Below, piece after piece: positions 34,520 to 43,507 of a stretch of 64,000 bases of DNA. Both the position numbers and the translations under genes were made by a program. The notes under the pieces are model-generated. The model made no database searches. It had not been told where the DNA came from and worked only from the letters and a program-made list of their open reading frames with translations. Source of the DNA: Kineococcus rubinsiae (GTDB taxonomy: Bacteria; Actinomycetota; Actinomycetes; Actinomycetales; Kineococcaceae); NCBI RefSeq assembly GCF_011839805.1, contig NZ_VWPY01000017.1, positions 1 to 64,000 on the forward strand, given 5' to 3'. Positions within the stretch are counted from its first letter, which is position 1. Each line of letters starts with the position of its first letter.

Positions 34520-35494
34520 TCACCGCACCCGGGAGGCGTCCCGCCCGGCGTCGAGGTCGATGCGCAGGTCCGGCTGGCCGACGGGCCCACCGAGGCCGGG
34601 CACGGTCGCCAGCAGGTGCTCGCGCGCCCGCTCGGCCGCCTCGCGGTGCACGGCGTCGTGGTCGTACAGCTCGACGCTGAGCCAGCCGGCGAAGTCGCTC
34701 TCGGCCAGCGCCTGCCCGACCGAGCGGAAGTCGACGTCGCCGTCACCGGGCACGAGGTGGGCGTGCACGCGGCCCGCGATGTCCTCGACCTGCAGGTGGC
34801 GGGTGATCGGCAGGTGGCGCGCGAGGGAGGCCAGCGGGTCGTCCTCGACGACGACCGTGTGGCCGAGGTCCTGGCTGAGCCAGAGGCTGTCGCTGCCCGT
34901 GCGGGCGATGACCGCCGCGGCCTCGCCGTTGGTCTGGACGTGGAAGCCGGGCTCCGGCTCCATGCCGAGGACGGTGGCGCCCGCAGGCAGGCCCGCCGCG
35001 TCGAGCTCGGCGGCGAGGACCTCGAGCAGCTCCGCGATGCCGTCGTCGAGCCAGCGGTCGGCCTGCGCGGCGGCCACCGCCGGGTGGCGGCTGCCCGTCG
35101 AGAACGCCACCAGGGGCACCCCGGCGCGGACGCCGATGCGGATGCCGCGGCGCAGCAGGTCCAGGCGGCGGGCCCGCTCGGCCGGGTCCGGGTCCACGAG
35201 CGCCGGCTCGAAGGGCAGCTCGCTCAGCAGGTGCGGGTCGCCGGTGGCGAGGCTGCAGGCGACGAGGCCCGTCTCGTCGAGGACCCGGCGCAGCGCGTCG
35301 GCCTCGGCGTCGCCGAAGGACCAGGGGTCGACGTGCTGGCCGTTGAGGGACAGCTCGATCCCGTCGTAGCCGCGGTCCGCGAGCACGCGGACGGCGTCCG
35401 GCAGCGTGGCCGAGCGCAGGCCGTTGGCGTTGTAGGCGAGCCGCAGCGGTGCGGCCGGGCCGTCGCCGGGGCGGGGCGTGGGAGAGGGGGGCAC
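34520..35494 (-). CDS. Sugar phosphate isomerase/epimerase-like TIM barrel protein
   Basis: A 324-residue xylose-isomerase-like TIM barrel (AP-endonuclease-2 superfamily). Recognisable strands include RLAYNANGL, GYDGIELSLNGQH, GMEPEPGFHV and GWLSVELYDHDA, whose Glu/His/Asp residues would bind a divalent metal. Substrate unknown. The GTG at 35492-35494 has GGAG seven bases upstream; an in-frame GTG at 35558-35560 would add a Pro-rich tail but lies in an operator-like repeat. It is divergent from the YcaO operon across a shared regulatory region, so it probably belongs to that pathway. Confidence 0.78.
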   Translation of the reverse strand: MPPSPTPRPGDGPAAPLRLAYNANGLRSATLPDAVRVLADRGYDGIELSLNGQHVDPWSFGDAEADALRRVLDETGLVACSLATGDPHLLSELPFEPALVDPDPAERARRLDLLRRGIRIGVRAGVPLVAFSTGSRHPAVAAAQADRWLDDGIAELLEVLAAELDAAGLPAGATVLGMEPEPGFHVQTNGEAAAVIARTGSDSLWLSQDLGHTVVVEDDPLASLARHLPITRHLQVEDIAGRVHAHLVPGDGDVDFRSVGQALAESDFAGWLSVELYDHDAVHREAAERAREHLLATVPGLGGPVGQPDLRIDLDAGRDASRVR

Positions 35495-35554
35495 AGCGGG
35501 CTCCGTCTCGTCGGGGGAAGGCGCTGGGGCTGGAGGAGGAGGGGCGCGCCGCGG

Positions 35555-35673
35555 CGTCACGTCGTCCGTGTCGTGACGGGGTGCGCGGGGGTGCGCCGGG
35601 CGTTCAGCGTGCCACCGCCGTCCGCCGGACGCGCGGTCGAACCCCCCGTCGTGACGGTGAGGGATTCGTCACG
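35555..35673. promoter_or_regulatory. Paired 7-mer inverted repeats in the shared control region of the YcaO locus
   Basis: Two sites use the same 7-mer. CGTCACG-N10-CGTGACG spans 35555-35578, and CGTGACG-N10-CGTCACG spans 35650-35673. Half-site spacing (17 bp between starts) is identical and the two sites are exactly 95 bp apart. A dimeric regulator binding both would control the divergent isomerase and the seven-gene operon together. No regulator gene is present in the operon. Confidence 0.55.
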
Positions 35674-35770: not shown

Positions 35771-36730
35771 ATGACGACGACCACGCCCGATCCCACGCGC
35801 ACCGACCCGCCCGCCCTGCCCGCGCTGGAACCCGTCGTCGGGCTCCTGCGGGAGATCGGCGACCTCAAGCGCCTGCGCGACGCCGGGGGCACCGGTTCCC
35901 TCGCCGACCGCGCGTTCCTGCGCTCCTGGCGGCGCCTGGTCGCCGGGCAGGACGTCGAGCAGGTCGCCGTGAGCGAGACCGCGCGGGCCCTGGCGGCCGC
36001 CCGGCTCGGGGGGATCGACGCGGCGGTGCTGCGGCTCGCGGGGCTCTCGCCCGAGGACGTCCGGGTCGTGCTGCGGCGCAGCGTGGATGCCGCGCTGGCG
36101 ACGACCGGGGAAACTCTCGGAGAACTCTCCGACGTGCTGGCCGCCGTGGGCGCCGACGCGTCCCCCGGCGCCGGGCTGCCGACCCCGCCGCCGTTCGCGG
36201 TGGCCCTGGTCCACCAGCCCCGCGCGGGAGCCACCCACCCGACGCGCCCGCGCGTCCTCGTGGAACCCCCCGAGAGCCACGGGGACCACTGCTTCGTCAC
36301 GGCGATCTACTCCGCACTCCTCGCCCCCTCGCAGGGCGTCAGCCGGGGGGACGCGTTCCTCGTCGCGCTCGCCCACCACCTGCCGAACGCGGACCTGCCC
36401 GACGCGGGGTTCGGCGGTGAGCTCCTCCTCGGGGAACACCTGCCGGCCGTCTTCGCGACCCTCACGGAACGCTCCCTCGCCCAGCTGCCGAACGCGCTCT
36501 CGGCCCGCCTGCGCGAACTCCTGCCGACCCGCGAGACCACGGCGACGCCGCTGGGCCGGGTGTTCAACGCGGCCGACGTCCTGGACCGCGTGCTGCAGGT
36601 CCACCACCACGCGCGGGCCGCGGCGTTCACGGCCGAGCAGGCGCTGGACGACCTCGACCTGGTCCACCCCGGGCCGGTGCAGGGCTTCCAGCTGCAGGTG
36701 CTGAGCGACGCGGGCCTCCCCGTCCGGTGA
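35771..36730 (+). CDS. HD-superfamily-like protein, first gene of the YcaO operon
   Basis: A 319-residue, all-helical soluble protein. The pattern resembles an HD-type metal-dependent phosphohydrolase: His173 (GDHC), the pair His202-His203 (LAHHLPNADLPD) where HD proteins have His-Asp, and Asp269 (NAADVLD). The exact substrate and even catalytic competence are uncertain. The ATG follows GGAGG. Its end overlaps the methyltransferase start as GTGA. I recognise the family only by this residue pattern. Confidence 0.55.
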   Translation: MTTTTPDPTRTDPPALPALEPVVGLLREIGDLKRLRDAGGTGSLADRAFLRSWRRLVAGQDVEQVAVSETARALAAARLGGIDAAVLRLAGLSPEDVRVVLRRSVDAALATTGETLGELSDVLAAVGADASPGAGLPTPPPFAVALVHQPRAGATHPTRPRVLVEPPESHGDHCFVTAIYSALLAPSQGVSRGDAFLVALAHHLPNADLPDAGFGGELLLGEHLPAVFATLTERSLAQLPNALSARLRELLPTRETTATPLGRVFNAADVLDRVLQVHHHARAAAFTAEQALDDLDLVHPGPVQGFQLQVLSDAGLPVR

Positions 36731-37839
36731 CCCCCACGACGTGGCCGGTCGTCGACGGCATCCCGTTCCAGCGCGCCGGGCGCGAGGTGCTCGCCGCCGC
36801 GGTCGTGGACCTGCTGGACGGCGGCGACCCGGCCGGCGCCCGCGCGCTGCTGCTGCGCGACGCCGACGACTGGTGGGACGAGGCCCCGCCCACGCTGGCC
36901 GAGGCGAGCGCCGCGGCGGGGGCGGCGACCCTCTCCGAGGCGACGCTGCACCTGCGTCTGGGACGCGTCGGGGACTACCTGCGCTACCGCTGGTCGGACC
37001 CGGCGTTCCTCGCGGGGCTCGGGCTTCTGCGCCGTGCGTGGCCCGGCGCGGGCCCCGGCGGCCTGCCGGTCGTCGAGGTCGCGGCCGGCACCGGCGTCCT
37101 GCTGCGCGAGCTGGCCCTGCGCGGGGTGCAGCGCCTCACGGGGGTCGACGTCGTGCACGCCAAGCTGTGGCTGGCCCGCCGCTTCGTGCTCGACGACCTG
37201 CCGGCGGACGCCGACGTGGACCTCGTCGTCGCGGACGCCGCGCACCCGTGGCCGCCGGCGCTCGCCCCGCAGCTGGACGCCGCGGCCGACCGGGTCGTGG
37301 TGTGCCACGACGCGTTCTACTTCCTGCCCGACCCGCCCTCGACCGCCGCCCGGCTGCGGGCGCTGGCCGGGGACGGCGGCTGCGTGGTGGTCGGCGCGGT
37401 CCCGAACGGGCTGCTGCCCCGGGTCGGGGGCGGCGCGCGCCTGTCCCCGCAGGACCTGCTGGACCTCTTCCCCGGCGCTGAGCTGCACGACGACGCCGAG
37501 CTGGCCGCCGAGGTCACCGGGGGCCCGCCGGCCCCCGCCCGGACGCCGGCGGAGCTCGCGGAGGCGGTCACCGTCTCCGCCGTCCTGCGCGCCCCGGGCT
37601 GGCGCGCGCGCCCCGACGCCCCCGACCTCGGCCTGCCCGTCCCCGGCCGGGTGCTGCGCCCCAACCCCCTCTACAGCGCGGACGGCGAGCTGCGCTGGCC
37701 GTCCCCGCGCTACGCGGCCGACTACGCCGAGCGCTGCGGCTACCTGCCGCCGCGGCTGCCCGCGGCGGCCGACCTGGCCGCCGACCCCGTGACCTGGGCG
37801 CGCCGCCGCGTCCTCCTCGACCTCCCGGAGCACTGGTGA
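36727..37839 (+). CDS. SAM-dependent methyltransferase-like protein
   Basis: A 370-residue protein with a Rossmann methyltransferase core. Motif I is VVEVAAGTGVLLREL (about 115-129), then a motif-II-like GVDVVHAKLWLA, and DLVVADAAHPWP and VVVCHDAFYFLPDPPSTAARL. The C-terminal 120 residues are an extra domain not typical of small methyltransferases. Substrate unknown. It starts at a GTG overlapping the preceding stop and is coupled in the same way to the next gene. Confidence 0.7.
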   Translation: MTPTTWPVVDGIPFQRAGREVLAAAVVDLLDGGDPAGARALLLRDADDWWDEAPPTLAEASAAAGAATLSEATLHLRLGRVGDYLRYRWSDPAFLAGLGLLRRAWPGAGPGGLPVVEVAAGTGVLLRELALRGVQRLTGVDVVHAKLWLARRFVLDDLPADADVDLVVADAAHPWPPALAPQLDAAADRVVVCHDAFYFLPDPPSTAARLRALAGDGGCVVVGAVPNGLLPRVGGGARLSPQDLLDLFPGAELHDDAELAAEVTGGPPAPARTPAELAEAVTVSAVLRAPGWRARPDAPDLGLPVPGRVLRPNPLYSADGELRWPSPRYAADYAERCGYLPPRLPAAADLAADPVTWARRRVLLDLPEHW

Positions 37840-38927
37840 CCCCCTCCCCCGTCCCGCCCCCGCCCGTCCCGCCGGAGCCGGGCGCCACGACCGGCTGGGT
37901 GATCGCCGGCGCCGGCTGGGTCGCGCGCGACCACATGGCGCCCGCCCTGGCCGCGTCGCCCACCAGCCGCGTCGTGGCCGTCGTCGACCGCGACCCCGCC
38001 GCGGCGCGCGAGCTCGCCGCCCGCTTCGAGGGTGCCCGGGCCGCGACCGACCTGGGCGAGGCCTTCGCCACCCCCGGCGCGCAGGTGGCCTACGTCGCCA
38101 CCCCCAACCACGCCCACCGCGAGGTGGTCGCCGCCGCGGCCGCCGCGGGGCTCGCCGTCCTGTGCGAGAAGCCGCTCGCGGCCACCCTGGCCGACGCGGC
38201 CGACCTGGTCGCGGCCTGCGAGGCCGCGGGGGTGCTGGCCGCCACGGCCTTCGACCAGCGCTGGCACCCGGCCCACCGGGCGGCCGCGGAGCTGATCGCC
38301 GGGGGCCGTCTCGGCACCGTCACCTCGGTCCGCATCATCTACGGCTGCTGGCTCCCGCCGGACTGGGCGCCGCCCGGCAGCACGACCGGGGACAACTGGC
38401 GGGTGGACCCGGCGCGGGCGGGCGGCGGCGCCTACGTGGACCTGGCCCCGCACGGCCTCGACCTCGTGGGGGCGCTGCTCGGGGAGGACGTCGAGCGGGC
38501 GACCACCCACCTGCAGCACCGCGTGCACGACTACGCCGTCGACGACGGGTCGGTGCTCGTCGGCAGCACCGCCTCGGGGGTGCTCGTGAGCATCGCGAAC
38601 TCCTTCAACACCGTCGAGACGCTGCCGCGGCGCCGCCTGGAGGTCGTGGGCACCGCGGGCCAGCTGGTCGCGACCGACACCATGGGGCAGACCGCGGGCG
38701 GCCGCCTCGAACTGCTCGACGCCGCGACGGGCGCCGCGAGCGACGTGCCGTTCGACGGCGTCACCACGCCGTTCGCCGCGCAGGTGCGGGCCGTCGAGCG
38801 GGCGCTGTCGGGCGAGACCCCCTGGCCGTTCCCCCTGGCCCGCGACCTGCGCCTGCTGCAGCTGCTCACCGACGCCCTGCCCCCCGTCCCCACCCCGAGC
38901 CACAGCGCCCTGGAGGTCTCCCCGTGA
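37836..38927 (+). CDS. Gfo/Idh/MocA family oxidoreductase
   Basis: A 363-residue NAD(P)-dependent sugar or cyclitol dehydrogenase. The N-terminal Rossmann fold has VIAGAGWVARDH (about 22-33); the catalytic Lys lies in LCEKPLA (about residue 112). The C-terminal alpha/beta domain includes GGGAYVDLAPHGLDL with a conserved His. Such enzymes oxidise or reduce hydroxyls on sugars, inositols or related rings. It is the third gene of the coupled operon, implying a sugar-like intermediate. Confidence 0.88.
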   Translation: MTPSPVPPPPVPPEPGATTGWVIAGAGWVARDHMAPALAASPTSRVVAVVDRDPAAARELAARFEGARAATDLGEAFATPGAQVAYVATPNHAHREVVAAAAAAGLAVLCEKPLAATLADAADLVAACEAAGVLAATAFDQRWHPAHRAAAELIAGGRLGTVTSVRIIYGCWLPPDWAPPGSTTGDNWRVDPARAGGGAYVDLAPHGLDLVGALLGEDVERATTHLQHRVHDYAVDDGSVLVGSTASGVLVSIANSFNTVETLPRRRLEVVGTAGQLVATDTMGQTAGGRLELLDAATGAASDVPFDGVTTPFAAQVRAVERALSGETPWPFPLARDLRLLQLLTDALPPVPTPSHSALEVSP

Positions 38928-39856
38928 CCGGACCGAACGACTCCCACGCGCTGCGCGACGTCCGCAGCGCCGCCCTGGCACCGCTGCCCACGCGCGCGCA
39001 CCGCAGCCACGTCGCCTACTCCTGCACCAACTGCGGGCACTGGCAGCGGTGGTTCCCGACGGCGCCGCCGCCCGCGTGCCCGGTCTGCTCCGACGTCCGC
39101 AACGAGCTGCCCGAGGGCGGTTTCGGGTTCCGCACCGCCGCCGAGGTCGACGCGCTCGTGACGACGTCCTGGCGCGAGGCCGTGCCCGGGGTGCAGGAGT
39201 TCTGGTGCGACCCCGTCGTCGGGCTGGGTTCCCACGGCTGGGTCCTCGACACCGCCGACGGCCTGCTCGCGTTCGAGGCCGCGCCCTGGTACTCCGCCGA
39301 CGCCCTCGCGGAGCTGCGGCGGCGCGGCGGGCTGCGGGTCCTCGCCTCCAGCCACGTCCACGGGTTCGGCGGGCTCTGGCAGCTGCAGGACGAGCTGGAC
39401 CCGCCGGTGGTCTCCGTCGGCGTCGAGGACCTGGTCTGGACGAAGTCGTTCCGGGTGACGTGGCCGGCCGACGAGCAGCTGGAGCTCGCGCCCGGGATCA
39501 CCATGCACCGCACGGGAGGTCACTTCCCCGGCCACCACGTCCTGCACGACGCCGACCGCGGCCTGCTGTTCTGCGGGGACTCCCTGAAGATCGACCTGGC
39601 CGAGGACGGCAGCGCCCGCGCGCTGAGCGCGCACAAGGCGTTCCACGCGCAGATCCCCCTCTCGCGCGCCGAGCTGCGGCACATGCGGGAGGTGATCGGC
39701 GCGCTGGAGTTCGAGACGGTGTTCAGCCCGTTCGAGTTCGCGGCCGTGACCACCGCGCACGTGCGCGCCCTCATCGACCACATGCTGGCCGCGCCGCCGT
39801 CCGCGGCCCCCGTGCCGATGGACGTCCTGTCGACCCCCCGGACGGTGTTCGCGTGA
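38924..39856 (+). CDS. Metallo-beta-lactamase-fold protein with N-terminal zinc ribbon
   Basis: A 310-residue protein. Residues 30-60 hold a four-Cys zinc ribbon (C34-x2-C37, C52-x2-C55). The MBL fold follows, but the first metal motif is HVHGFG (144-149) rather than HxHxDH, so the Asp and third His are missing. Later ligands look kept: His200/His204 in GGHFPGHH and Asp219 in FCGDS. It might bind one metal or have lost hydrolase activity. Zinc-ribbon fusion to MBL resembles rubredoxin-like redox arrangements, but a role here is unknown. Confidence 0.75.
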   Translation: MTGPNDSHALRDVRSAALAPLPTRAHRSHVAYSCTNCGHWQRWFPTAPPPACPVCSDVRNELPEGGFGFRTAAEVDALVTTSWREAVPGVQEFWCDPVVGLGSHGWVLDTADGLLAFEAAPWYSADALAELRRRGGLRVLASSHVHGFGGLWQLQDELDPPVVSVGVEDLVWTKSFRVTWPADEQLELAPGITMHRTGGHFPGHHVLHDADRGLLFCGDSLKIDLAEDGSARALSAHKAFHAQIPLSRAELRHMREVIGALEFETVFSPFEFAAVTTAHVRALIDHMLAAPPSAAPVPMDVLSTPRTVFA

Positions 39857-41442
39857 GCGGCACCGGGACCCGCCCGCTGGTGAACCCCCACCCGGTCGAC
39901 GACCGCACCGAGCACCCCGTCACGGCGGACTTCCGCGCGGCCTGCGGGCCGCTGGACGCGTTCGAGTTCCCGACCTACCTGCTGGACACGGTCGGGATCC
40001 CGAGCTGGTGGACGATCGCCCGCACCGCCGGGAGCTCGGACCCCGGGCACGGCTACGGCGCCGACGACGCCGACGCGCGCCGCTCCAGCTGGGGCGAGTC
40101 CGCCGAGATCGGGCTGCTGCGCAAGCGGATCGCCGGGCTCGAGCACCGGCGCGCCAGCTACGCCGACCTCGTCGCGCAGGAGGGGGTCCGGGCCGTCGTC
40201 GACCCGCCGACCCTCTGCCTGGACGCCGGCGCGCCGTACTCCCCGGACGCCGAGCTGACGTGGCTCCCGCTGCAGCGCTTCCGCACCGGGGAGCGCGTGT
40301 GGGCCCCCGCCGACGTCGTGCTGCGCGACGCCGACGCCCTGCCGCCCGGGTTCCGCGACGACCTGCCGCACCTCGTGACGCGCATGGGCAACGGCCTCGG
40401 CGCCGGGGACACGCTGCCCCGCGCGGTCGCCCACGGCCTCGGCGAGCTCCTGCAGCGCGACGGCAACGGCACGCGGTTCCGCGCCCTGGACACCGGGGCC
40501 GTGCTCGACCTGGGCCCGGGCGACTCCGCCGTGGCCGACCCGGCCACGCGCGAGGCGCTGCGGCGGTTGCGCAGCGCCGGCGTCGACGTGCGGGCCAAGC
40601 TCGCGAACACCTCCTTCGGCATCGTCAACGTGACCGTCGTCGGCGCCGACGCCGACCCGCTGCAGCCGGTCATGGTCACCGCGGCCGGCGAGGCCGCGCA
40701 CCCCGACCGGGAGGTCGCGCTGCGCAAGGCCGTGCTGGAGTTCGCCGCGGCCCGCTCCCGCAAGGCGTTCACCCACGGCTCGCTGGCCGCCGTCGCGGAG
40801 ATCTCCCCCGCCGGGTACCTGGACACCTACGCCGCCGACCCGGCCGGGTCCGAACCCCGGGCGCTGCAGGGGATGCTGCGCTGGCTGGGCCTCGGCGCGG
40901 ACGAGCTGCGCGCCCTGCTGGAACCCGTCGTGCTCGCCGAGCGCTCCCGGGTCCCCTTCACCTCGCTGCCGACGTGGTCGGCGCCCGCGGGCTCCGACCC
41001 GCAGCGCGCCCTCTGCGACCACCTCGTGGCGACGCTGGAGGCCGAGGGGTTCGACGTCCTCGTCCTCGACTGCTCCGACGACGAGCAGGCGGGGGTGGCC
41101 GTCGCGCGGGTCGTCGTCCCCGGCCTCGAGGTGGAGATCATGAGCTACGGGCGCATCGGCGAGCGCGGCGCGGCCGACCTCCTCGCCCGCGGTGACGGGC
41201 GCACCGGGCTGCACGGCATCGTCGGCCTCGGCGTCCCCGGCGCGGCCGGGGTGCCCGGCACCGCGGCCCCCGTCCACCTGAGCGACGCTGCGGCGCAGCG
41301 CCTCGGCGGTCCCGTCTGGCTGGACCGCGCGGCCGTCGACCGGGTGGTCGGCGACCTGTACCCGCTGTACCGCGAACCCGCCCTGCACGCCGCCGCGGTG
41401 GCCCGGGAGCGGGGCTGGACCCCGGCAGGAGGAACCCGGTGA
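39853..41442 (+). CDS. YcaO-domain protein
   Basis: A 529-residue YcaO-fold enzyme. Diagnostic blocks are GNGLGAGDTLPRAVAHGLGE (179-198, with Glu198 followed by LLQRD) and EVALRKAVLEFAAARSR (287-303), which would contribute ATP/Mg ligands; VVPGLEVE lies near 421. Known YcaO enzymes phosphorylate an amide oxygen to make azolines, amidines or thioamides. The Pro-rich C-terminus of azoline-forming YcaOs is absent, as are E1-like, TfuA and precursor-peptide genes nearby. The sugar-enzyme context suggests a non-standard substrate (inferred). Confidence 0.82.
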   Translation: MSGTGTRPLVNPHPVDDRTEHPVTADFRAACGPLDAFEFPTYLLDTVGIPSWWTIARTAGSSDPGHGYGADDADARRSSWGESAEIGLLRKRIAGLEHRRASYADLVAQEGVRAVVDPPTLCLDAGAPYSPDAELTWLPLQRFRTGERVWAPADVVLRDADALPPGFRDDLPHLVTRMGNGLGAGDTLPRAVAHGLGELLQRDGNGTRFRALDTGAVLDLGPGDSAVADPATREALRRLRSAGVDVRAKLANTSFGIVNVTVVGADADPLQPVMVTAAGEAAHPDREVALRKAVLEFAAARSRKAFTHGSLAAVAEISPAGYLDTYAADPAGSEPRALQGMLRWLGLGADELRALLEPVVLAERSRVPFTSLPTWSAPAGSDPQRALCDHLVATLEAEGFDVLVLDCSDDEQAGVAVARVVVPGLEVEIMSYGRIGERGAADLLARGDGRTGLHGIVGLGVPGAAGVPGTAAPVHLSDAAAQRLGGPVWLDRAAVDRVVGDLYPLYREPALHAAAVARERGWTPAGGTR

Positions 41443-42752
41443 GGATCTGCTTCGTCAGCCGCCGCTACTGGCCCGCCGTCTCGGGCATGAGCGTCTACGC
41501 CGAGAAGCTGCTCGAGGAGCTCGTGCGCCGCGGCCACGACGTCGTCCTCGTGTCGCAGTTCCGGGGTGACGCGGCGGGCAGCGCCGTCTACGGCGGCGGG
41601 CCGCCCCCGCCCGACCGCGTCCCCGCCGGGGTGCGGGCGATCGGGCTGGAGGCCCTCGGCGAGCAGCGCGTGTCGCAGGGACAGCCGGCGGACTTCGCCG
41701 CCGACGTGGCGACCATGCGGGACACGGTCCTGCGCCTGCACGCCGAGGAGCCCTTCGACCTGCTGCACGCCCAGTACGCCTGGCCCGTGGGCATGGCCGT
41801 CCTGGAGGCGGCGACGGAGCTCGGCCTGCCCTCCGTCGTCAGCGTGCAGGGCGGCGACGGGCACTGGGTGGGTCTCTGCTGCCCCGAGCACTCCACGGGC
41901 ATCCGCACCGTCCTGGACCGCGCGGACGCCGTCCTCATCGGCTCGCAGTCCTTCGCCGACGAGGTCGTCGAGCACCACGGCACCGACCCGGAGCGGTTCA
42001 CGCTGCTCGGCGGGGCGACGGACACGACGGCGTTCTCCCCCGCCGACGAGGACGACCTCGGTCGCCCCGACCACGACGGCGACGGGGTGACGACGCTGCT
42101 GTTCCACGGCCGCGTCGACCGCCGCAAGGGCGTCCTGGACCTGCTGCACGCCCTGGCGGCGCTGCGGGCGCGGGGCCGCGCGGTGCGCCTCGTCGTCTCG
42201 GGCATCGGCCCCGACGTCGCCGCCGTGGCGGAGCTCGTCACCCAGCTGGGCCTCGAGGACGCCGTCGAGCAGCGCGGGTACGTCGCCTACGCCGACGCCC
42301 CCGACGTCTACCGGGCGGCCGACGTCTTCGTCTCCCCCACCCAGTCGGAGGGGTTCTCCAACACCATCCTCGAGGCGATGGCCGCGGGCCTGCCCGTCGT
42401 GACGACCCGCTCCGTCGGGGTCGTCGACTGCGTGCGGCACCGCGAGAACGGCCTGCTGCACGAGGTCGGCGACGTCGAGGGCCTCGTCGACGCGCTCACC
42501 GCGCTGCTCGACGACCCCGCGCTCGGGCCGAAGCTCGCGACGCAGGCGCTGCAGGAGGTCCGCGACGTCTGGTCGTGGCCCGCGCTGACGGGCCGCATCG
42601 AGGCCGTCTACGCCCGCCTGGCCGGCACCGCTCCGGACACGTCCTGGACGGCGCTGCCCGTGCCGGAGCGCCCGACGAGCCGGGGGCGCGGGATCGAGCC
42701 GGGCCCCTCGGCCGAGCCGTGCCGCTTCCTGGCCGCCCCCCACCTGCTGTGA
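41439..42752 (+). CDS. Glycosyltransferase family 4 (GT-B fold)
   Basis: A 437-residue retaining GT4 enzyme. The N-terminal domain opens RICFVSRRYWPAVSGMSVYAE. The C-terminal nucleotide-sugar domain carries LFHGRVDRRKG and the EX7E block in SEGFSNTILEAMAAGLPVV (about residues 305-323). The last 40 residues are a Pro-rich extension. Family GT4 includes MshA and BshA, and the next gene is a PIG-L deacetylase, an MshA/MshB-like pairing. Donor and acceptor are unknown. Coupled by GTGA overlap on both sides. Confidence 0.88.
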   Translation: MRICFVSRRYWPAVSGMSVYAEKLLEELVRRGHDVVLVSQFRGDAAGSAVYGGGPPPPDRVPAGVRAIGLEALGEQRVSQGQPADFAADVATMRDTVLRLHAEEPFDLLHAQYAWPVGMAVLEAATELGLPSVVSVQGGDGHWVGLCCPEHSTGIRTVLDRADAVLIGSQSFADEVVEHHGTDPERFTLLGGATDTTAFSPADEDDLGRPDHDGDGVTTLLFHGRVDRRKGVLDLLHALAALRARGRAVRLVVSGIGPDVAAVAELVTQLGLEDAVEQRGYVAYADAPDVYRAADVFVSPTQSEGFSNTILEAMAAGLPVVTTRSVGVVDCVRHRENGLLHEVGDVEGLVDALTALLDDPALGPKLATQALQEVRDVWSWPALTGRIEAVYARLAGTAPDTSWTALPVPERPTSRGRGIEPGPSAEPCRFLAAPHLL

Positions 42753-43507
42753 CGACACCTGCGGTGGGTCGGCCCGGGGCGGCGGGACCGCTGCCCGGGG
42801 CGGCGCGGGTCGCCGCGGTGTCCCCGCACCTGGACGACGCCGCCTTCTCGGCGGGAGGGCTCCTGGCGGGGCTCGCCGCGGCGGGCGCCGACGTGTGCGT
42901 CGTGACGGTGTTCACCGCGAGCGTCCCGGACCCGACGGGGTTCGCCCTGGCCTGCCAGCTGGACAAGGGCCTCGCCGCGGACGTCGACTACCTCGCCCTG
43001 CGCCGGGCCGAGGACGTCGCCGCGACGGCGGCGCTCGGCGTGCGCCACCGCCACCTGCCGCTGCGCGAGGCCCCGCACCGGGGCTACGAGAGCGCACCCG
43101 CCCTGTTCGGGCCGGTCGTGGCCGCGGACGACGTGGGGCCGGAGGCGGTCGCGGAAGCCGTGGCGGCCGCGCTGGCGGAGGAGTTCCCCGGGGGGCTCGA
43201 CCTGCTCCTCGGACCGCAGGCCCTGGGCGGGCACGTCGACCACCGCCACGTGCGCGACGCCCTGCCGCTGCTCGCGGCGCGCCTGGGCGTCGTCCGTTCC
43301 GCGTGGGCCGACACGCCGTACCTGCTGCGCGCCGGGGCGGACGCCCCCGACGGCACCGCCCGGCCGCCGGCGCCCGCCGAGCTCGCCGCGAAGGTGGCGG
43401 CCTGCGCCGCCTACCCGACGCAGCTGGGGTTCCAGTTCTCGGGCGTGGACGCGATGGCCGAGGCCCTGCGGGGCACGCCCGAGTTCTTCACCGCCGCCGT
43501 GGCCTGA
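42749..43507 (+). CDS. PIG-L/LmbE family deacetylase
   Basis: A 252-residue zinc-dependent N-acetylglucosamine-type deacetylase. The metal/catalytic motif is SPHLDD (25-30), and the second metal motif is GGHVDHRHV in the C-terminal half. Relatives (MshB, BshB, PIG-L) remove acetyl from GlcNAc-linked substrates, typically after a GT4 step like the preceding gene. It is the last gene of the seven-gene operon, ending 7 nt from a convergent gene. Confidence 0.87.
   Translation: MTTPAVGRPGAAGPLPGAARVAAVSPHLDDAAFSAGGLLAGLAAAGADVCVVTVFTASVPDPTGFALACQLDKGLAADVDYLALRRAEDVAATAALGVRHRHLPLREAPHRGYESAPALFGPVVAADDVGPEAVAEAVAAALAEEFPGGLDLLLGPQALGGHVDHRHVRDALPLLAARLGVVRSAWADTPYLLRAGADAPDGTARPPAPAELAAKVAACAAYPTQLGFQFSGVDAMAEALRGTPEFFTAAVA

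Follow-up and report, generated by a model that had tools for sequence, protein, structure and literature searches.

The question raised by this locus is what a YcaO enzyme does among genes for sugar and inositol chemistry. YcaO enzymes activate amides in peptides and proteins, and nearly all of the characterised members act there. In the 64,000-nucleotide stretch of Kineococcus rubinsiae DNA analysed here (the window; host genome of 4.88 Mb in 119 contigs), seven open reading frames (ORFs) at positions 35771-43507 encode an HD-fold protein (HD), a methyltransferase (MT), a Gfo/Idh/MocA dehydrogenase (GFO), a metallo-beta-lactamase-fold protein (MBL), the YcaO, a GT4 glycosyltransferase (GT4) and a PIG-L deacetylase (PIG-L), while a xylose-isomerase-like gene (AP2) lies divergently next to them. 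We consider it likely that the operon belongs to a horizontally mobile pathway dedicated to a single small metabolite, which would be not a peptide but a modified inositol bearing a glucosamine unit. The seven ORFs and the 4-nt GTGA overlaps at all six junctions, from which a preliminary description of the locus had proposed a single unit, are present, and GTG is the start codon of every operon gene except the first. Since 4 of 17 same-strand neighbour pairs of the window, as delimited by a crude gene caller, overlap by 4 nt, such overlaps by themselves are weak evidence for a unit.

When the genomes of 84,980 species were scanned with an MBL alignment as the seed, 59 loci were recovered from Kineococcus, Geodermatophilaceae, Frankiaceae, an uncultured Frankineae metagenome-assembled genome (MAG), Streptomyces, Actinomycetospora, Pseudonocardia, Micromonospora and one Acetobacteraceae MAG. 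The exact order HD-MT-GFO-MBL-YcaO-AP2-GT4-PIG-L was observed by tblastn in 43 of them, counting plus-strand matches of at least 90 bits only. As these loci, found by MBL alone, share an order of eight genes, the order is more than chance; chance co-location is ruled out by this and by the recurrence of the operon in Pseudomonadota. The remaining 16 loci comprise seven from Actinomycetospora with HD-MT-GFO-MBL-YcaO only, three from Kineococcus (MT present in L059, absent from L058 and out of view in L057), one (L060) without YcaO and five cut by contig ends. MT is absent from five of the seven Kineococcus operons in which its position is visible. The neighbourhood search that the preliminary description had suggested as a check thus bears out its expectation, as the same families co-occur far outside the Kineococcus lineage, in three phyla. 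Its seven-gene set holds for the window; in most other lineages there are nine genes, and there are lineages without MT and lineages without MBL.

At the genus level, eight of 11 Kineococcus genomes (the window's own included) have the YcaO at 73-100% identity, and the window MBL groups with those of the genus, the nearest being that of K. siccus (96% identity). The other three genomes (G002, G004, G010) have only a 46-48% relative of the YcaO, and no further operon gene was found around it in the 12-20 kb fetched. An evenly drawn sample of 394 genomes of the class contained eight, besides the window's own, with a strong YcaO match (E < 1e-80), representing four complete operons, one partial operon on a short contig and three YcaOs with no operon gene in the 20-kb stretches retrieved. 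In one Pseudonocardia MAG (L109), the YcaO groups with Geodermatophilaceae and the MBL and GT4 with Pseudonocardia. This discord points either to the replacement of a gene within the operon or to a mixed assembly.

The strongest argument for one pathway is provided by the split loci. In six of the seven split-operon genomes examined, the genes lacking from the operon proved to be present at another site. Of the Actinomycetospora loci with a half operon, seven in all, those of five isolates and of the MAG L105 were followed (L092 was left out); in each of the five isolates a separate site in the genome carries AP2, GT4 and PIG-L as a group. The genome of L060, the operon of which lacks YcaO, has a YcaO of the same subfamily elsewhere. 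The operon of the Acetobacteraceae MAG ends at a contig edge inside MBL, and another contig of that MAG carries the end of an MBL followed by YcaO, AP2, GT4 and PIG-L.

The divergent AP2 of the window (34520..35560, minus strand; AP_endonuc_2, 118.9 bits), a predicted xylose-isomerase-like TIM barrel of the sugar/inosose isomerase or dehydratase class, had been named in the preliminary description as a probable member of the set, and this is supported. In other lineages AP2 lies inside the operon, adjoining YcaO, and the divergent gene is the best match of the window's genome to the operon AP2 (E 5.6e-27; next, 2.7e-8), though at just 31-35% identity to the in-operon rows. The same is true of the genome G001.

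Clustering of the flank genes of the actinobacterial loci and of L115 revealed one further family directly attached to the operon, an inositol-3-phosphate synthase (Ino1), which lies directly upstream of HD in 48 of the 50 loci with enough upstream sequence. It is absent from L058 (Kineococcus) and L062 (Goekera), and also from the operon in the window. This ninth gene scores over the cut-offs of PF07994 and PF01658 (213.3/114.1 bits in L086 and 200.4/111.8 bits in L115), its nearest solved structure is 7nwr, and its Roseomonas and Hymenobacter counterparts are annotated as inositol-3-phosphate synthase. Four operon Ino1 proteins reach 34.9-45.7 bits against the mycothiol INO1 model (cut-off 638); judged by these scores, the operon synthase is not the mycothiol INO1. 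The Kineococcus genomes G000, G001 and G007 contain one distant Ino1 match each (27-30% identity, E ~1e-10), presumably the mycothiol INO1. The dedicated Ino1 would refine the glycosylated amino-sugar scaffold of the preliminary description to a cyclitol (inositol) with an amino sugar. HD, GFO, YcaO, AP2, GT4 and PIG-L occur in every lineage read, with the exceptions of AP2 in one genome (G007) and of the second half in L105. Each of Ino1, MT and MBL is lacking in at least one lineage.

The occurrence of the operon in Pseudomonadota was followed with the YcaO of the Acetobacteraceae MAG (G414) as query against 398 genomes from its phylum. Five genomes besides G414 gave a strong match, and all five contain INO1-HD-MT-GFO-YcaO-AP2-GT4-PIG-L in this order, without MBL. 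In the family of one of these five, 22 of 199 genomes matched strongly (E < 1e-120), five of which were read in context. None of the seven Methylobacterium-like loci read has an MBL. Four plasmid records also match, covering 90% or more of the query at 43-80% identity. The complete nine-gene set, in the same order, is carried by the p546-2 plasmid of Roseomonas haemaphysalidis. In Methylobacterium bullatum and M. aquaticum the operon is of the MBL-free form, and Hymenobacter volaticus (Bacteroidota) has INO1-HD-GFO-MBL-YcaO-AP2-GT4-PIG-L, with only MT missing (GFO is annotated, and GT4 was matched, as two pieces). In a GT4 tree of 31 rows the Pseudomonadota form one clade (100/99), the Actinomycetota stand apart with moderate support (87/84), and Hymenobacter is a single long branch.

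The genes flanking the operon were called with a crude gene caller, and those lacking a Pfam call were named by eye. Among the other flank clusters listed, an epimerase-like gene in 13 loci and an SdhA-like gene in 11 also extend across genera. Six Methylobacterium-like loci (L168, L169, L170, L171, L172 and L188) share, in the same order after the operon, a membrane protein and a PAS-domain-like protein, and several such loci also have a copper-ATPase-like gene there. Downstream of the Streptomyces verrucosisporus operon, on the opposite strand (L107:15732-18560), there is a second AP2 and Gfo/Idh pair by Pfam, together with a sugar-binding-protein-like gene. A gene annotated bshB1 (bacillithiol deacetylase) adjoins the operon PIG-L of the Hymenobacter plasmid on the opposite strand (L185:13537-14271). 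Just past the operon on the Roseomonas plasmid, an MdoH-like glucosyltransferase gene precedes two genes annotated as spore photoproduct lyase family (L186:14864-16985).

The hosts raise the possibility of a mycosporine-type UVA sunscreen, in which GFO and AP2 would turn inositol into a cyclohexenone, MT would make the enol ether, and YcaO would replace MysC by phosphorylating a vinylogous acid, with which an amine (glucosamine) would condense as it does via the ATP-grasp enzyme MysC. Many of the named host genera (Kineococcus, Geodermatophilus, Blastococcus, Modestobacter, Methylobacterium, Roseomonas and Hymenobacter) are known as sun-exposed or irradiation-tolerant (desert, rock, phyllosphere, air), the lyase family genes near the Roseomonas operon agree with such exposure, and the enzyme kinds fit the needed steps. 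UVA-absorbing compounds are reported from phyllosphere Methylobacterium according to the title of a reference cited in PMC8561711, which is a lead rather than a test. This evidence is circumstantial; Streptomyces, Micromonospora and Pseudonocardia are not known to be specially sun-exposed, and MT is missing from most of the Kineococcus operons in view and from Hymenobacter. We regard a sunscreen of this kind as possible but rather unlikely. In its full form, the proposal is that a plasmid-mobile pathway of three phyla makes a UVA sunscreen derived from inositol and bearing glucosamine, for which YcaO would phosphorylate a vinylogous acid in a small molecule as MysC does. This is speculative and somewhat doubtful; if true, YcaO would have a role outside peptides, and a natural sunscreen would be made by a new biosynthetic route.

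A peptide substrate for YcaO was considered next to the metabolite. For the precursor search, 1,038 short frames (25-150 aa) from the 2-kb flanks of 13 loci were compared between families. No short ORF conserved between families was found in these flanks, though a very short or divergent peptide could escape; of the 13 between-family matches at E 1e-3, several are pieces of longer genes (the L102 epimerase and the L101 APP1 gene). The operon in the window, with its 4-nt overlaps, leaves no intergenic gap for a precursor. No E1-like/ThiF, TfuA or flavin dehydrogenase partner was detected among the eight window proteins by Pfam and NCBIfam, and none was recognised by eye in the flank clusters. 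The earlier statement that precursor, E1-like partner, TfuA and dehydrogenase are all lacking thus stands for the genes of the window, and the 13 sets of flanks agree with it as regards a conserved short ORF. With neither precursor nor partner protein found in these searches, a YcaO cluster for a ribosomally synthesized and post-translationally modified peptide (RiPP) of the TOMM/thioamitide type was rejected. YcaO could also modify a peptide or protein encoded elsewhere (a RiPP or a ribosomal protein), with the sugar genes decorating it. The peptide and protein substrates of nearly all characterised YcaOs speak for such a role. The E. coli enzyme acts on uL16 (PMC13063428). The role is nevertheless very improbable here, as no precursor ORF and no E1-like, TfuA or dehydrogenase gene was found in the flanks and among the window genes, respectively, the co-inheritance is with Ino1, GFO and AP2, and the YcaO subfamily is a distinct one.

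The operon YcaO (39853..41442, plus strand; Pfam, 170.3 bits against a cut-off of 25.7) has no fused E1-like domain and displays ExxQR in place of ExxER. Its profile aligns with five solved YcaOs (MJ1094, the YcaO of 6ci7, E. coli YcaO, LynD and TruD), and the positions of E. coli E75, E78, E199, R203 and E290 are unchanged in all 64 operon YcaOs from three phyla; the compared E. coli positions presumably bind ATP/Mg2+. The Gln of the motif, at the E202 position, is also present in all six solo relatives (YcaOs of the subfamily that stand without an operon), whereas eight other YcaOs of the class scored there have Glu. The outgroup set consisted of 14 YcaOs, five of them without a motif match; L001 was matched at another site, and its ExxER was taken directly off the sequence. 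A second YcaO in the host genome (G000:C72:2312-3295; L001, L024) has the normal ExxER motif. Judged from these alignments, the operon YcaO is a distinct subfamily, the predicted ATP/Mg2+ site of which is mostly kept and is altered at one expected metal ligand. A PF01522 polysaccharide-deacetylase-like gene lies near four solo YcaOs (over the cut-off in L055 and L056, under it in L021 and L022), a link that is too loose to use.

The domain labels given to the other enzymes in the preliminary description are each backed by Pfam, the zinc ribbon of MBL being sub-threshold. HD (35771..36730, plus strand; HD_3, 26.3 bits against a cut-off of 22.5) is a YfbR/HDDC2-type protein with an extended helical region at its N terminus. 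The best Foldseek matches of its AlphaFold model (pLDDT 84.4) are HD-domain proteins of this kind (best E 0.022, none at or below 0.001), and a myo-inositol-oxygenase-like enzyme was rejected since the rows displayed point to HDDC2/YfbR types. MT (36727..37839, plus strand; Pfam) is a class I SAM-dependent methyltransferase with an N-terminal part of its own; its nearest PDB match is a UbiG-type O-methyltransferase, with sugar N,N-dimethyltransferases lower in the list. GFO (37836..38927, plus strand; GFO_IDH_MocA, 90.0 bits) is predicted to be an NAD(P)-dependent sugar/inositol dehydrogenase. MBL (38924..39856, plus strand; Lactamase_B) combines a CxxC...CxxC zinc ribbon with the metallo-beta-lactamase fold; the hydrolase motif HxHxDH of that fold is altered to HVHGxG, the HVHG.G columns being invariant in alignments of 9 and 20 rows. 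A Foldseek search with its structure model was generic and uninformative below the superfamily, and no PDB sequence match was obtained. The invariant acidic and His residues of AP2 would fit a metal site, and its nearest solved structures are IolE and then Art22, on which the literature searched gave nothing. The alignments of HD, MT, AP2 and PIG-L contained 13 to 21 chosen rows.

The two remaining enzymes resemble those of low-molecular-weight thiol biosynthesis in kind. The nearest solved structures to GT4 (41439..42752, plus strand; Pfam) are 3c4q/3c48, which we take to be MshA, and BshA-type enzymes; it scores 96.4 bits against the MshA model TIGR03449 (cut-off 462.5). PIG-L (42749..43507, plus strand; Pfam, 52.0 bits), a predicted zinc de-N-acetylase, retains the SPHLDD and HxDH zinc motifs. 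Its nearest solved structures are 6iiy and the Dbv21 and teicoplanin Orf2 deacetylases, and against Mca, the only mycothiol model listed, it reaches 19.2 bits (cut-off 277.15). No operon protein falls within the MshA, MshB or MshC equivalogs, and the MshC of the window's genome is located elsewhere. MshC is over its cut-off in all 12 actinobacterial hosts tested and in one of 14 control genomes, and is not so in the Acetobacteraceae MAG. The operon therefore runs beside mycothiol in the actinobacterial hosts, and replacement of mycothiol by the operon was rejected because they retain MshC; as the MAG has no match over the cut-off, the operon does not seem to need mycothiol.

These data also bear on a second mycothiol-like protectant (against redox, desiccation or osmotic stress), in which the amine of glucosaminyl-inositol would be capped by a YcaO-dependent amidine instead of by MshC. 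Ino1, GT4 and PIG-L together follow mycothiol logic, the GT4 is nearest to 3c4q and BshA, and the operon runs beside mycothiol in every actinobacterial host tested and, judged from the MAG, does not seem to need it. The operon contains no cysteine- or thiol-adding enzyme, and GFO, AP2 and MT would be superfluous, so that we hold a protectant of this type to be a tentative and not very probable alternative.

A secreted antibiotic of the inositol-aminoglycoside type (the logic of fortimicin, kasugamycin and hygromycin A) appears improbable. It would account for Ino1, Gfo/Idh, MT and GT4, and for a PIG-L nearest to antibiotic-type deacetylases. In hygromycin A biosynthesis, inositol is made from glucose 6-phosphate and then oxidised by a Gfo/Idh inositol dehydrogenase, and Hyg17, the myo-inositol dehydrogenase, is of the same superfamily as GFO; the genome-mining section of that paper, as far as consulted, makes no mention of YcaO (PMC10949010). 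MFS-like genes were recognised by eye near the operon in L102, L115, L170 and L187 (upstream in the last two) and would suit export. The operon, however, has no aminotransferase. No shared transporter family and no export, resistance or regulatory family common to many actinobacterial loci was recognised by eye among the flank clusters listed for them, and numerous species within a single genus carry the unit.

The preferred reading thus remains the dedicated pathway to an inositol bearing glucosamine. The presence of Ino1, GFO and AP2 argues for an inositol-type scaffold, and that of GT4 and PIG-L for GlcNAc turned into glucosamine. From gene content and order, co-inheritance, family membership and residue conservation, we infer the following substrates, reactions and order of reactions. 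Ino1, encoded by the dedicated gene elsewhere and in Kineococcus presumably by the mycothiol-type gene of the genome, would supply inositol 3-phosphate, from which HD would strip the phosphate. GFO may then oxidise the cyclitol to an inosose, to be isomerised or dehydrated by AP2 and methylated by MT in the lineages that keep it. GT4 would transfer GlcNAc, as MshA and BshA do, and PIG-L would remove the acetyl group to free the amine. YcaO, the one enzyme of the set for which ATP-driven activation is expected, would phosphorylate a carbonyl oxygen (of an amide or a vinylogous acid), and an amine, plausibly that of glucosamine, would displace the phosphorylated oxygen to form an amidine- or enamine-type C-N bond. 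MBL would be an accessory enzyme.

Several observations weigh against this pathway or parts of it. Genes for an aminotransferase, for an amide ligase or for any obvious donor of an amide are lacking in the operon. In the 12-20 kb fetched for six other YcaOs of this subfamily (L021, L022, L023, L050, L055 and L056) there is no operon, the second half of the operon was not found in the MAG L105 (a GT4 fragment only, and no AP2), and the K. siccus genome G007, in which the operon is near a contig end, gave no AP2 match. The HD dyad, aligned to that of 2cqz and 1xx7, is replaced by HH in all 21 rows, and the catalytic H...HD...D of HD phosphohydrolases is absent from these rows; the match of HD to such proteins is one of fold only, with weak E-values, and phosphatase activity of HD is doubtful because of this dyad. 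AP2 lies under every NCBIfam cut-off (44.7 bits for IolE against 290; 57.4 for hydroxypyruvate isomerase against 353.45), as do, by far, the AP2 proteins of other lineages, and GFO fits no NCBIfam equivalog, the nearest, xylose dehydrogenase Gfo6 and IolG, giving scores far below their cut-offs. In all 64 operon YcaOs, Gln occupies the E202 position and Lys the R286 position, and the E191 region is variable. In E. coli YcaO, E202A was among the variants tested, and replacement of any ATP-binding residue led to incomplete thioamidation (PMC13063428). Given these substitutions and the E. coli variants, the ATP use of the operon YcaO may be altered.

The locus is of interest because, in three phyla, a conserved gene order and joint retention where the operon is split tie a YcaO to genes for inositol, sugar transfer and deacetylation. 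This linkage points to small-molecule chemistry for the YcaO family and to an apparently undescribed metabolite. The gene set of the operon is small enough to be expressed whole. In line with the preliminary description, which knew of no pathway with such a gene set, no paper on such an operon, nor on a YcaO with a cyclitol, was among the open-literature matches listed, most subscription papers being outside the scope of that search. Allosamidin, with its dimethylamino-oxazoline cyclitol, was considered as a candidate; judging by titles and the opening lines of abstracts, none of the papers listed concerns its cluster.

The operon can be compared with four kinds of known systems. With the YcaOs of RiPP biosynthesis and thioamidation (LynD, TruD, E. 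coli and archaeal) it shares the family and most of the ATP/Mg2+ positions; it differs in that no partner or precursor was found, and in the changes at E202, R286 and the E191 region. The mycosporine-like amino acid pathway (MysA-MysD) is similar in its cyclitol core, its O-methyltransferase and a single ATP-dependent carbonyl activation with amine condensation, whereas the operon has Ino1 rather than a sugar-phosphate cyclase, YcaO rather than an ATP-grasp enzyme, and GT4 and PIG-L in addition, so that the likeness is one of resemblance only. Mycothiol and bacillithiol biosynthesis (MshA/BshA and MshB/BshB) has in common with it the supply of inositol phosphate, the transfer of GlcNAc by a GT4 enzyme and deacetylation by PIG-L; the operon adds an Ino1 family of its own, GFO, AP2, MT, YcaO and MBL, is without a cysteine ligase or acetyltransferase, and its GT4 and PIG-L are far under the cut-offs of the mycothiol models. 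The aminocyclitol antibiotics derived from inositol (hygromycin A, kasugamycin and fortimicin) share the inositol supply and the Gfo/Idh dehydrogenase, while the operon has YcaO and no aminotransferase. Among the publications consulted, the work on the inositol dehydrogenase of hygromycin A comes nearest in its logic to the operon.

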